From: a virus
Direction: 5' to 3' (one strand)
Length of the DNA stretch: 23,754 nucleotides
IMG/VR virus record: IMGVR_UViG_3300033144_009539
Span: 1-23,754 of that record
This document shows positions 2,134-14,380 of the stretch, piece by piece. Position 1 is the first letter of the stretch, and each line of letters starts with the position of its first letter. The notes below the pieces were generated by a model. It had not been told where the DNA came from. It searched no databases and saw only the letters and a list, made by a program, of their open reading frames with translations. A program made the translations under genes and the position numbers.

Positions 2134-3555
2134 TTATTTTTGCAAATATTCATAAATTTGTATTCGCTTATCTGCCATAGCGCCTAGTAATTTATTATTC
2201 ATATCGTATATGTCCAATACTAAAGGACTCTGTTTCCCCTCAAATTGACGCTCAATCCTTCCTACGGACTGTTCAATGGTTGATTCACTACTTAATGGAG
2301 TTGCGTAAACCAAAGTGTCCAGGTGAGGTATATCCACTCCCTCCATAGCTTTCTTATACGTTGCGAAGATTATATTAGCACTATTTAATTCCTCTAATGT
2401 TGGATCTTCGACCTTCTCCTGTTTTATACCCTGTTTACGCTGAGTTTTAGTTATAGATTCGGGACCAAAGAACCGCACAATTTTAGTTTTCTTTGGAACT
2501 TGACTCTTAGTTAGCTCCATCAACCCTTTCAAGTGAACTATTCTTTCAGATAATATAAGTATCGATCTTTTTTCCTTCTTAAAAGCCTTAACTACTATAT
2601 CAACAATTAATTCATTTCTCTTTTCATCAGCAACGATATTATGAATTACCTGAATTTTATAAGGAATATAAGGCGGATAATACTTCCATTTTTTATCCCT
2701 AACATATTCCGTAAACATATGATCTGCTGTTATATTTCTAACCGATTTCCCTGTTATCAAATTATCAGACGTATGTAAATAATATAACTTCTCCATTTCA
2801 TCCGTTCTCTTTGGAGTAGCAGACAAACCCAACCTATATTTAGAATTAAATCTTGTGAATGATTTTAGAAACTCCTTCGCTCCGATTCGATGCACCTCAT
2901 CTTGAATAACCAACCCAAATAATTTATTAATTTCGGGACTTATTGTACCACGCATTAAACTCTGTGTCATTCCAATAACAATCTTTCCGTCCTTAAATTT
3001 CCCTTGCTGCAACAACCCAATTTCATCCTCTTTAACATCAGTAAGCATCATTATATTTTCTTTCCATTGCTTAACAAGAGTATTTTTATGAACAAGCACT
3101 AACGTTTTCATACCTAAATAAGACGCAATAAATATCGCCATAGTAGTTTTACCTTCCCCTGGCTTTGCAACAATCACAGCTCCAAAATGATATTTTAACA
3201 TTTTAATAGTAGCGTCTATAGTTTTTATCTGCTCGTTATTTAACTTAAAATTATCGCCCTTATTTATTATAAGAGGAGCTATTTCAATTTTAGTTTTATT
3301 TTCGCCTACATCCCTTTCATAAGCTTTTCGAGCAGTAGCACTAATATCACCAAAAGTATATCTTGGGACTTGATAAGCATACCCTCCACTTTTAGTTTTA
3401 ACCCTTCTATACAAATGAAATATAGGCGAAGTATCGCCTAATTTTATTCCCTGCTTTATTTTCTTTTCATATTCAGGATTAACAAAAGTAAGTTGGGCTT
3501 TTAATTCAGCAGTAAACTTACTTGGTGAGATATACAAAAATCCTTTTAGTAACAT
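2134..3555 (-). CDS. Superfamily 2 DNA helicase (UvsW-like)
   Basis: 473 residues, ATG with AAAGGAAG upstream. It should use ATP to move along or anneal branched DNA. Two RecA-like lobes are visible: Walker A AKPGEGKT at 130-137, motif Ia region TLVLVHKNTLVKQW at 151-164, DEVH box at 219-222, SAT at 245-247, then ILILSERI (332-339) and motif VI QSVGRIER at 429-436. Residues 1-100 form an N-terminal extension that may hold a DNA-binding domain, as in UvsW-type helicases; there is no nuclease domain. A likely role is branch migration or fork remodelling during phage recombination and replication. The gene stands directly after an intrinsic terminator (3584-3605), so its expression must depend on read-through, antitermination or a promoter hidden in the 30-nt gap. 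Confidence 0.92.
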   Translation of the reverse strand: MLLKGFLYISPSKFTAELKAQLTFVNPEYEKKIKQGIKLGDTSPIFHLYRRVKTKSGGYAYQVPRYTFGDISATARKAYERDVGENKTKIEIAPLIINKGDNFKLNNEQIKTIDATIKMLKYHFGAVIVAKPGEGKTTMAIFIASYLGMKTLVLVHKNTLVKQWKENIMMLTDVKEDEIGLLQQGKFKDGKIVIGMTQSLMRGTISPEINKLFGLVIQDEVHRIGAKEFLKSFTRFNSKYRLGLSATPKRTDEMEKLYYLHTSDNLITGKSVRNITADHMFTEYVRDKKWKYYPPYIPYKIQVIHNIVADEKRNELIVDIVVKAFKKEKRSILILSERIVHLKGLMELTKSQVPKKTKIVRFFGPESITKTQRKQGIKQEKVEDPTLEELNSANIIFATYKKAMEGVDIPHLDTLVYATPLSSESTIEQSVGRIERQFEGKQSPLVLDIYDMNNKLLGAMADKRIQIYEYLQK

Positions 3556-3577: not shown

Positions 3578-3605
3578 TAAAAAAACCCACTTCGAAAAGC
3601 GGGTT
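3578..3605 (-). terminator. Intrinsic terminator just upstream of the helicase gene
   Basis: Minus-strand RNA forms AACCCGCUU-UUCG-AAGUGGGUU, a 9-bp stem including one G-U pair and a UUCG tetraloop, followed by a run of seven U counting the stem end. It ends about 25 nt before the helicase start codon. It would stop transcripts from the upstream operon and also those from the promoter candidate at 3765-3796. Confidence 0.85.
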
Positions 3606-3676
3606 CTATTCATTCACCCATTTACACAATCCAACATAGGAAAGGAAATTTATGAAAATCAAAATTTCAGATCTAA

Positions 3677-3712
3677 TTAAAGACCTACAGTTGTTCCGCC
3701 ACCACCTAACAT
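3677..3712 (-). CDS. 11-codon leader ORF MLGGGGTTVGL
   Basis: An AGGAGG SD at 3726-3721 lies 8 nt before an ATG that opens an 11-codon frame (MLGGGGTTVGL, then TAA). This is one of the strongest ribosome sites in the window, yet it serves only this tiny Gly-rich peptide. It lies between the promoter candidate (3765-3796) and the terminator (3584-3605), in the place expected for a leader peptide. Whether the peptide has a function or its translation controls read-through into the helicase gene cannot be told from sequence. Confidence 0.5.
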   Translation of the reverse strand: MLGGGGTTVGL

Positions 3713-3745
3713 GATGCGTTCCTCCTAATTTCAGGTTTGGAATTG

Positions 3746-3785
3746 AGCTCTATTTGCTCTTGCCCAAATATACTAAAATAGAGCT
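3746..3785 (-). repeat. 10-bp perfect inverted repeat around a promoter
   Basis: AGCTCTATTT and AAATAGAGCT are separated by 20 bp that contain the -7 element of the promoter candidate at 3765-3796. One arm is between the -33 and -7 elements and the other is just past the expected start of transcription. This is a good arrangement for a dimeric repressor site or for a 5' hairpin. Confidence 0.75.
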
Positions 3786-3796
3786 ACTTAAAACAA
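3765..3796 (-). promoter_or_regulatory. Promoter candidate, Bacteroidota type, before the leader ORF
   Basis: Minus strand TTG (3796-3794), 21 nt, TATATTTG (3772-3765), a full match to TAnnTTTG. It begins directly after the stop codon of the 3797-4081 gene. Transcription would start near 3760 and meet the terminator about 180 nt later. Confidence 0.6.
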
Positions 3797-4081
3797 CTAA
3801 TTTTCAGTAGGATTTTCACCTTTTAATTCCAGTTCAAGAGCCAAAACCATTTGATATTCTTCCTCAGTAACTTCCTTCCACCAAGTAATATGAATCATAT
3901 ATTCTTCCGGATCTTTATCCTTTAACATTTTACCTTTCCATAGAAAAGGATGGCTATCAGTTACAACACTATTATATTTAACCATACTTTGAACCGGAGG
4001 TCTATTACGAATCTCAAGACTAGGTTTTCTTTTCGGAGTAATAAACTCCATAAAAACAATATAATAAAACTTACTTTCCAT
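3797..4081 (-). CDS. Hypothetical protein
   Basis: 94 residues, ATG overlapping the upstream gene by 1 nt, with AGGGA upstream. The N-terminus is mixed hydrophobic (ESKFYYIVFMEFI), then a Pro-rich basic part and an acidic Trp-containing C-terminal half (HITWWKEVTEEEYQMV). No signal peptide, membrane helix or known motif. It is the last gene of the polymerase operon. Confidence 0.65.
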   Translation of the reverse strand: MESKFYYIVFMEFITPKRKPSLEIRNRPPVQSMVKYNSVVTDSHPFLWKGKMLKDKDPEEYMIHITWWKEVTEEEYQMVLALELELKGENPTEN

Positions 4082-4344
4082 TATACATCCCTTATTAAAT
4101 GTTTTTGATTATCACTTATCCAAGGCTGAGTTCCTGCTCTCTGCGCCATAATTAATACATCATGAGAAGTTACATTCTTATCCCAATTTATACCTTCTTG
4201 ATATTGTGCATCACATCTATCACAATGCCAATCCATATACCCATGACACAAATCCCCCTCAGAATCACAACCATTATTAATTACGCCCGCAATAACCCAC
4301 TTATGCCCAAACCTCTTACATAACCACTTTCTAAATTTTTTCAT
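4081..4344 (-). CDS. Small zinc-ribbon-like protein
   Basis: 87 residues, ATG with AAAGGA upstream. The opening KKFRKWLCKRFGHKW with Cys9 and His14, followed by Cys41 and Cys44 in WHCDRC, matches the layout of small phage zinc-finger proteins of the DUF1660 kind (Cys-x4-His then Cys-x2-Cys). Cys26, Cys33 and His34 provide further possible ligands. Function of such proteins is not known; nucleic acid or protein binding is the usual guess. It lies between the GIY-YIG gene and the last gene of the operon. Confidence 0.7.
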   Translation of the reverse strand: MKKFRKWLCKRFGHKWVIAGVINNGCDSEGDLCHGYMDWHCDRCDAQYQEGINWDKNVTSHDVLIMAQRAGTQPWISDNQKHLIRDV

Positions 4345-4353
4345 TTTATCCTT

Positions 4354-5043
4354 TTATTTAATCATCTCAGGTAAAAGTGTGTACCCGGAAGAAACCATTT
4401 TTATATCAAAATATTTATTACCCTCACTATCATATGTAACTATCCCACCTTTTGTTAAAGTAACTTTTGCCATAGCTTTAGGTCTTAAATTCGTATGCGG
4501 ATACTTAGCAATAAAAAAAACTCCCTTAATAGAATACCCTGTAACAATATCACCAACCTGAATATTATCAACAATTTTACAATTGTATTTCATTTTAATT
4601 CCACACTGTATTTTTTTAGAAAATTTTATACTGCCAAATATTTTAATTGTTACATCATCCGAATATTTTAAAGCCCCATTTTGTTCAGGTTTAAATTTAG
4701 ATATAAAAAAAGGCTCAAAAACAAAAGCATCAGAAACAGTTTTAGTAATACCATATTTAATCCATAAAGCTTCCTGTTTAAACTTATAACACGCCTTATA
4801 AGAATCCACTATTCTACCACCAAGATTTTTACTCGCTCCAACATACACAACTTTATTACTCGAATTAGTAAATATATAACAACCTGGTACGCCTCTAAGA
4901 CTTCTCGCCAAATACAAAAACTCCCTCGATTTTCTAACCCAATGCTTCCTTAAACGAGTTGTTTTATCAAAAGCTAACAAAACATTTTCCATGCCCTCGA
5001 CTTTAGGAATAAAATCAATTTGTGGAATAATTTCTTCCTTCAA
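4354..5043 (-). CDS. GIY-YIG nuclease coupled to DNA polymerase gene
   Basis: 229 residues from a TTG start at 5043 that overlaps the polymerase stop (TTGA) and has GGAGG 8 nt upstream. The nuclease core is clear: GCY at 54-56, YVG at 67-69, Arg77, Glu110 and Asn122 give the full expected set (two Tyr, Arg, Glu, Asn). Residues 130-229 are a second, beta-rich part not seen in minimal GIY-YIG proteins (VDNIQVGDIVTGYS onward), possibly a DNA-binding or specificity domain. It cuts DNA by analogy. It could be a free-standing homing endonuclease parked beside polA, a common location for them, or a phage repair or host-DNA nuclease. No intron or intein is visible in the polymerase. The tight coupling argues for stable co-expression. 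Confidence 0.85.
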   Translation of the reverse strand: MKEEIIPQIDFIPKVEGMENVLLAFDKTTRLRKHWVRKSREFLYLARSLRGVPGCYIFTNSSNKVVYVGASKNLGGRIVDSYKACYKFKQEALWIKYGITKTVSDAFVFEPFFISKFKPEQNGALKYSDDVTIKIFGSIKFSKKIQCGIKMKYNCKIVDNIQVGDIVTGYSIKGVFFIAKYPHTNLRPKAMAKVTLTKGGIVTYDSEGNKYFDIKMVSSGYTLLPEMIK

Positions 5044-7033: not shown

Positions 7034-7080
7034 GTTTAAAAAAGTTAAGCCCGATAAAAAGAGCATTTAATATCGGGCTT
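7034..7080 (-). terminator. Intrinsic terminator just upstream of polA
   Basis: AAGCCCGATA and TATCGGGCTT form a perfect 10-bp stem (7080-7071 with 7056-7047) with a 14-nt loop; on the minus strand it is followed by AACTTTTTT. It ends about 15-20 nt before the polymerase start codon. It should stop transcripts from the primase operon and from the promoter candidate at 7113. Confidence 0.85.
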
Positions 7081-7112: not shown

Positions 7113-7143
7113 CAAACATATCAATAAAATTTTAACTTGTCAA
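7113..7143 (-). promoter_or_regulatory. Promoter candidate, Bacteroidota type, before polA leader
   Basis: Minus strand TTG (7143-7141), 20 nt, TATGTTTG (7120-7113), a full match to TAnnTTTG. The -33 element is bracketed by two direct copies of a 14-bp sequence (7122-7135 and 7144-7157). A transcript starting near 7107 would reach the terminator after about 70 nt. Confidence 0.6.
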
Positions 7144-13370: not shown

Positions 13371-13787
13371 TTAGTGCTCCTTTTTATAAATGTATATTTT
13401 AGTCCTTGGAACCTCATAATCCAAGTCCTCTGCTGCTACATAATACTTCCTAATATTATTATCATTTTTTATGACACCATTCTTCTGCATTGTATCAAAC
13501 AATAATTCAATAGAAGCATCCGCAAGTTTGTTGTTATACCATATTTCAAAAACCCATAAAAAATCCCTGCTGTTTAAGTCAGGGAATTTTAATCTCTTTA
13601 CTTGTCTCTCTACTAATGTTATATAGTTAATAGCTTGTTTACCCAAAACAAAATGAGTAAGAGTAAATTGACGCTGATTTGATTTTCTTGCCGGTGAACC
13701 GAATAATATAAAACTATGAATCAAGGTATAGTGATTTTTTATCAGCCTCAAGAGCAATTCGTCTTTTTCTACTTTTTTGATACTCAC
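13371..13787 (-). CDS. RusA-like Holliday junction resolvase
   Basis: 138 residues from a GTG at 13787 with AGGAG 6 nt upstream. This start lies 74 nt inside the upstream gene; a TTG at 13724 would remove the overlap but has no SD. From residue 25 on the layout matches RusA: FILFGSPARKSNQR, a conserved Lys-x-Tyr-like helix, then LADASIELLFDTMQKNGVIKND and PRTKIYIY at the end. Asp90 and Asp109 fit two RusA catalytic acids; the second member of the usual DxDN pair is Ser. RusA-type enzymes cut four-way junctions, which would clear recombination intermediates before packaging. The missing acid means activity should be checked. Confidence 0.7.
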   Translation of the reverse strand: MSIKKVEKDELLLRLIKNHYTLIHSFILFGSPARKSNQRQFTLTHFVLGKQAINYITLVERQVKRLKFPDLNSRDFLWVFEIWYNNKLADASIELLFDTMQKNGVIKNDNNIRKYYVAAEDLDYEVPRTKIYIYKKEH

Positions 13788-14058
13788 GCAAATCTCCTAT
13801 AAAAGATATGCGATAACCATATATCTGTCCCATCCCCGGTAAACCTGTTAGTTTGTATTTTATTTTTATCTTCTTCCATTTTTTACAAACAAACTCTAAT
13901 AAATCATTAGTTGTTTCCAACCCCTGTTCCTCACAAAGCATCTTAAATAATCGAGACGTTTTCCCTGCATGATAAGGACACTCCTCATCTAAATAATAAA
14001 AATAATTATCCCGAAAATTCCTCCATACTTGAGGCTTAGTTAGTTCTATAGAACCCAT
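13714..14058 (-). CDS. Hypothetical protein
   Basis: 114 residues, ATG with AAAAAGGAGC upstream. Contains YLDEECPYHAGKTSRLFKMLCEE and a Lys-rich middle (KKWKKIKIKYKL), ending in a basic-charged C-terminus that overlaps the resolvase gene by 74 nt. Not recognised; soluble and basic, possibly DNA binding. Confidence 0.68.
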   Translation of the reverse strand: MGSIELTKPQVWRNFRDNYFYYLDEECPYHAGKTSRLFKMLCEEQGLETTNDLLEFVCKKWKKIKIKYKLTGLPGMGQIYGYRISFIGDLREYQKSRKRRIALEADKKSLYLDS

Positions 14059-14077
14059 GCAAGTTGCTCCTTTTTAG

Positions 14078-14380
14078 TTATTTGGGTGAAGTTCTTTTAA
14101 CCCCTCTATTTTTTCCTGCTAAAAGTTTAGAATCAACAATACCCTCAGCTTCACTAAGCATTTTGTGGAAATCTTTTTCTGTTCCGCCTCTTGCTAAATA
14201 CGCTTTAAGTATTTTTTCCTTCACTTCAGAATAAGCTGTCTTAAAGAACAGTTCGTAAATAACTTCCTTATTAAGTATTTTACCACCAATCTCTATAAGA
14301 GCTAACAGATCTTTTCCATTAACTTTTCTTGGTAAAGTAATAGTTCTTCTAACAGCTATTTCTTTAGTAAATATAGCCAT
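14078..14380 (-). CDS. Hypothetical protein, first gene of the replication module
   Basis: 100 residues, ATG with GAGAG upstream. Starts with a strand-like AIFTKEIAVRRTITLPRKV, then helical with a basic tail (GKNRGVKRTSPK). It is the first gene after the 92-bp gap that separates head genes from replication genes, so it may be the earliest gene of that transcript. Not recognised. Confidence 0.68.
   Translation of the reverse strand: MAIFTKEIAVRRTITLPRKVNGKDLLALIEIGGKILNKEVIYELFFKTAYSEVKEKILKAYLARGGTEKDFHKMLSEAEGIVDSKLLAGKNRGVKRTSPK

Follow-up and report, generated by a model that had tools for sequence, protein, structure and literature searches.

A possible stand-alone miniature gene, complete with promoter and terminator, before the SF2 helicase gene of an uncultured tailed phage

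The DNA in front of the SF2 helicase gene of an uncultured tailed phage (IMG/VR) carries a promoter, a very short reading frame and a terminator, which raises the question of whether this unit is a leader of the helicase, a small RNA or a gene in its own right. The window, by which we mean the whole stretch of DNA analysed, is a 23.7-kb fragment whose main genes are all encoded by the minus strand; in order, they specify the terminase, portal, capsid, a DnaC-like loader, a DnaB-like helicase, primase, DNA polymerase A, a GIY-YIG endonuclease and the SF2 helicase.

Parts of the unit before the helicase gene

The sequence-only reading had proposed a TTG-N21-TATATTTG promoter, an inverted repeat bracketing its −7 box, an AGGAGG site with an 11-codon ORF and a strong terminator about 25 nt before a helicase gene. 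Each of these parts was recovered, and they and their order can be read directly from the DNA, as listed below.

3797–5043, minus strand: accessory block (94-aa ORF, 87-aa ORF and GIY-YIG endonuclease) between the DNA polymerase and helicase genes
3765–3796, minus strand: Bacteroidota-type promoter, with the −33 TTG at 3796–3794, the −7 element TATATTTG at 3772–3765 and a spacer of 21
3776–3785, no strand: left arm AGCTCTATTT of a perfect 10-bp inverted repeat, a possible operator
3746–3755, no strand: right arm AAATAGAGCT of the repeat, perfect over 10 bp
3582–3760, minus strand: RNA of ~179 nt, predicted from the promoter and terminator positions
3721–3726, minus strand: AGGAGG Shine-Dalgarno (SD) site, 8 nt 5' of the ATG and partly in a hairpin (−5.7 kcal/mol)
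3677–3712, minus strand: 11-codon ORF MLGGGGTTVGL with its stop codon
3669–3686, minus strand: stop-codon hairpin AGGUCU-UUAAUU-AGAUCU with the stop in its loop, to which a G-U adds a seventh pair
3582–3607, minus strand: intrinsic terminator with a UUCG loop and a T-run (−13.1 kcal/mol)
2134–3555, minus strand: SF2 helicase (ResIII/DEAD), with ResIII (1.5e-24), DEAD and Helicase_C domains

The promoter has TTG at −33 and TAnnTTTG at −7, matching in sequence those of the Bacteroidota primary sigma factor (sigma-ABfr type), for which the consensus is TTTG / TAnnTTTG at −33 / −7 (PMC7366714, PMC6847099). Two intergenic promoters of this type were found in the window (P = 0.0075). Taking the −7 element to cover positions −12 to −5, the placement determined in Flavobacterium (PMC6847099), would put the start of transcription near 3760. 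The two repeat arms are separated by a gap of 20 nt around the −7 box, and inverted repeats of at least 10 bp are present in 0.6% of shuffled gaps. The repeat may be an operator. A conserved operator was rejected as a candidate because in L024, the related phage described below, the repeat arms are different and fall partly within an upstream terminator.

The ORF is the sole ATG mini-ORF with a strong (AGGAGG-type) SD site in the window, whereas 0.025 per strand would be expected from shuffling and such a mini-ORF occurs in 1.5% of shuffled gaps. Its SD energy ranks second among 37 starts. The predicted peptide is uncharged and without a hydrophobic stretch, and a pattern search of the sequence collection for peptides of this type gave no match. 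The stop codon lies within a hairpin loop in both the window and L024 mini-ORFs, a pattern that was seen after the fact and that holds for 5% of stop trinucleotides and 0 of 36 genes as background. With regard to SD use in general, sites of −6 kcal/mol or better precede 53% of the window genes compared with 17% of random sites, and the phage combines Bacteroidota-type promoters with frequent strong SD sites. To our knowledge, Bacteroidia normally do without SD sites, in which respect the window phage differs from the system that its promoters resemble. Because the phage genes use SD sites and Bacteroidia do not, the host may be an SD-using lineage near Bacteroidota.

The terminator ends 26 nt 5' of the helicase ATG (3555) and separates the helicase from every possible upstream promoter. 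Since no promoter fits in these 26 nt, helicase transcripts must cross the terminator, and a dosage effect of the terminator on the helicase is thus likely.

The polymerase–helicase junction in related phages

Relatives were found by capsid and polymerase alignments, namely G005 (54 kb), G006 (72 kb) and L024/G008 (38 kb), with polymerases 38–46% identical (45% for L024) and capsids 54–66% identical to those of the window phage. The capsid scan gave two relatives and the single-protein scan with the polymerase gave distant ones only; those with the helicase or terminase gave no close relatives, and nothing close to the window was found among the genome contigs scanned. The accessory block has no match in G005, G006 or L024; its endonuclease ORF (4354–5043), likewise not found in these three phages, overlaps the end of the polymerase gene by 4 nt. 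As for G006, radical-SAM (QueE-like) and GTP cyclohydrolase-like (FolE-like) ORFs, read from translations alone, are present at L108:9183–10511 on the minus strand and suggest a 7-deazaguanine pathway.

Among the three relatives that span the polymerase–helicase junction (L024, G005 and G006), one, L024, has the same layout as the window, in the order polymerase, accessory genes, promoter, SD site, 12-codon glycine-rich ORF, terminator and gene. Its features are as follows.

8819–8845 of L024: upstream terminator, read from the sequence, just 5' of the promoter and isolating the unit
8857–8887 of L024: promoter TTG-N20-TATCTTTG, followed by a CGGAGG SD site
12-codon ORF of L024: VGGGNRGSKTLG (GTG-GGT-GGC-GGA-AAC-AGA-GGT-AGT-AAA-ACT-TTA-GGT-TAA)
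second terminator of L024, after the 12-codon ORF: −12.5 kcal/mol

In G005 and G006, the polymerase and helicase genes are separated by small overlapping ORFs alone, with no leader. The recurrence in L024 concerns the layout: when each gap was shuffled 20,000 times, promoter and SD-ORF took this arrangement in none of the shuffles for the window and in 1 for L024, whereas a local alignment of the two leaders did not rise above shuffled sequences (P = 0.58) and their sole common stretch, the 10-mer GGTGGCGGAA, is matched equally well by shuffles. Thus, as the leaders are unalignable and the layout is rare in shuffles, what the two phages have in common is the architecture and a Gly-Gly-Gly start. 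As to the check proposed earlier, whether this gap is conserved in relatives, L024 keeps the layout but not the leader sequence, and G005 and G006 lack the unit. Immediately behind the unit, L024 has a 165-aa ORF, and only then the helicase. The L024 helicase gene (L024:9543–12350) contains an in-frame intein with a LAGLIDADG domain, and the window helicase is without an intein.

Units of a similar kind were sought elsewhere by scanning for a small glycine-rich ORF with an SD site or TAnnTTTG element 5' of it and a terminator after it. As a result, one site each was found in the window, L024, G006 (43 aa), BS162P1 (36 aa) and MT835482 (43 aa), and none in G005. In the latter three phages, which are more distantly related and of which BS162P1 and MT835482 are gut phages, the ORFs each have their own TAnnTTTG element and a terminator 20–30 nt past the stop; their products are basic proteins, and the genes lie at other genome places than the window unit. 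Their link to the window unit, drawn by layout only, is a guess, and these 36–43-aa proteins may be unrelated to the window peptide. The proteins of Bacteroides phage BS162P1 (L241:9902–10156, corresponding to 59902–60156 of that phage) and MT835482 (L240:30900–31179) are Gly/Ala-rich, each with its own Bacteroidota promoter and terminator, and the stretch conserved between the two phages is a part of the untranslated leader (45 nt, 87%, E 2e-4). A looser scan for the promoter-SD-Gly pattern returned at least 120 stretches and, among the matches listed, a glycine-rich mini-ORF followed by a terminator was present in L024 only. The view of the window unit as self-contained is supported by the syntenic recurrence in L024 and by the glycine-rich units found once each in the three further relatives.

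A sister unit before the DNA polymerase gene

The polymerase-side intergenic region is the sole other one in the window with a Bacteroidota-type promoter, and it also has a terminator.

7113–7143, minus strand: promoter TTG-N20-TATGTTTG before the DNA polymerase gene
7047–7080, minus strand: terminator hairpin before the DNA polymerase gene (−15.2 kcal/mol)

This sister unit corresponds to a compact RNA without an SD site or ORF, with the polymerase gene directly behind the terminator; in G005 and L024, too, the polymerase gene is closely preceded by a terminator. The order promoter, RNA, terminator and gene, seen before both the polymerase and the helicase, is thus a repeated arrangement in the phage. 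An AT-rich 10-bp repeat, TAAAATTTTA, flanks the −33 element of the polymerase promoter (7156–7125) and differs in sequence from the repeat at the helicase promoter.

The polymerase-side RNA (7112–7036, minus strand) contains TGCAAGTTGTACCTTTTAGT, which is near-exactly antisense to the SD site and start codon of the gene at 13714–14058 (ACTAAAAAGGAGCAACTTGCATGG, 14058–14080), with a pairing energy of −27 kcal/mol (P 0.01 vs shuffles). The equivalent RNA of L024 is also antisense to gene starts, with the DnaB-like gene as the best (P 0.013), and the signal for that of G005 is not significant (P 0.57). A GCTCC anti-SD motif is present in all three. From these matches, it is possible that the polymerase-side RNA is a trans-acting phage antisense RNA.

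Interpretation of the window unit

We tentatively favor, at a little short of even odds, a reading of the window unit as an autonomous miniature phage gene of a moron-like kind, and rank a conditional leader second, a small regulatory RNA third and chance last. In such a mini-gene, the host RNA polymerase of Bacteroidota type would start near 3760 to produce an mRNA of ~180 nt, ribosomes would engage AGGAGG and synthesize the 11-residue glycine-rich peptide, and transcription would stop at 3582, with the repeat that brackets the −7 box as a possible operator. The helicase would be made only from the fraction of transcription that reads through, from either the mini-gene promoter or the upstream operon, and the unit would double as a dosage step for the helicase. 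From their arrangement we infer that these parts are active, that the product is the peptide and not the RNA, and that the repeat acts as an operator. In support of the mini-gene, the unit sits within an accessory block, is missing from G005 and G006, and in L024 is not directly 5' of the helicase, a placement and patchy presence as expected for movable cargo. Against it, just two phages show the unit at the polymerase–helicase site, with sequences no more alike than shuffled ones; the L024 ORF can also be read as 9 codons from the next GTG or as a leaderless frame of 30 aa; and an uncharged 11-residue peptide that lacks a hydrophobic stretch has no obvious activity.

The mini-gene resembles phage morons of the lambdoid type in having its own promoter and terminator, both recognized by sequence, and in lying between conserved genes as an insertion that is present in the window and L024 and absent in G005 and G006; it differs in that a product of 11–12 residues is far below known moron proteins. 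Another point of comparison is mccA of microcin C, a 7-codon gene followed by a terminator. The likeness lies in a very short ORF that has a promoter of its own and is separated from the next gene by a terminator, but the peptide has no similarity to that of the window ORF, and no MccB-like adenylating enzyme was seen among the neighboring window proteins searched.

A less probable, indeed rather unlikely, alternative is a conditional leader (attenuator), in which the promoter would drive the helicase operon, and whether transcription stops at 3582 or goes on into the helicase would depend on translation of the mini-ORF or on a phage antitermination factor. The 26 nt behind the terminator and the recurrence of promoter, terminator and gene before the polymerase both speak for it, as do the terminators before the polymerase genes of G005 and L024. 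Furthermore, because a terminator lies upstream of the L024 promoter, the downstream genes of that phage, including the helicase, depend on this promoter and read-through. Long 5' UTRs of Bacteroides have also been reported to contain sORFs like attenuation leader peptides (PMC7366714). As far as can be told from sequence, the unit shares with attenuators of the trp/his/thr type a short SD-driven, translatable ORF with an intrinsic terminator behind it, close to the start of a structural gene. However, the alternative partner for the 5' arm of the window terminator is a 4-bp helix, to which at most three long-range pairs with the 5' end of the RNA can be added, and L024 has weak alternative pairs only, against terminator hairpins of −12.5 to −13.1 kcal/mol. 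With 69 nt in the window and 23 nt in L024 between the end of the ORF and the terminator stem, a ribosome on the stop codon could not reach far enough to block the terminator. The glycine codons are, moreover, unrelated to the helicase, the next gene in L024 is a different one, and G005 and G006 manage without a leader. We rejected classical attenuation as unlikely, since the window terminator has no substantial antiterminator, its 5' arm having no strong partner, and the ORF ends too far away. The earlier description of the unit as a helicase leader therefore stands insofar as the terminator must be crossed, and is weakened by the leaderless relatives, the second place of the helicase in L024 and the missing antiterminator. 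We prefer a stand-alone unit to a helicase-specific attenuator because L024 has another gene than the helicase next to the unit, the two sequences do not align and neither leader has a convincing antiterminator.

It is improbable that the product is a small regulatory RNA of ~180 nt to which the ORF would be incidental or add a second function. The length, the 5' hairpin and the terminator all fit such an RNA, and the sister RNA before the polymerase is compact and without an SD site or ORF. Nevertheless, the folding of the leader RNA is not exceptional (z −1.6), an Rfam search gave no match at gathering score, the stop-codon hairpin is the only structure in common with L024, and the SD site and start codon recur in that phage. 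Antisense action of the leader RNA was rejected, since its matches to phage gene starts were no better than those of shuffles (P 0.37–0.62). The leader DNA showed similarity to phages and plasmids at chance level. Finally, a chance juxtaposition of an upstream-gene terminator and a helicase-operon promoter in the wrong order, with a meaningless mini-ORF, is the least probable explanation: promoter-like strings are frequent in AT-rich DNA (52 sigma70-like ones found vs 53.8 expected) and none of the single features is more than moderately rare (the SD mini-ORF, for one, turns up in 1.5% of shuffled gaps), but in combination they are very seldom reproduced by shuffling and recur at the polymerase–helicase junction of L024.

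To return to the mini-gene, there is a slim chance that it represents a wider family in phages of Bacteroidota-like hosts, consisting of an 11–12-codon gene, equipped with a promoter and a terminator of its own, that would encode a glycine-rich diffusible regulator or host-takeover effector, and of which the G006 unit and the two gut-phage units would be longer versions. Ultra-short genes escape annotation pipelines, and a layout recurring in diverged phages offers a cheap and clear test of whether phages keep genes of a dozen codons. The order of promoter, terminator and gene before both the polymerase and the helicase also suggests that the levels of replication genes in this phage group are set by read-through or antitermination, a form of control that has been little studied in Bacteroidota phages.
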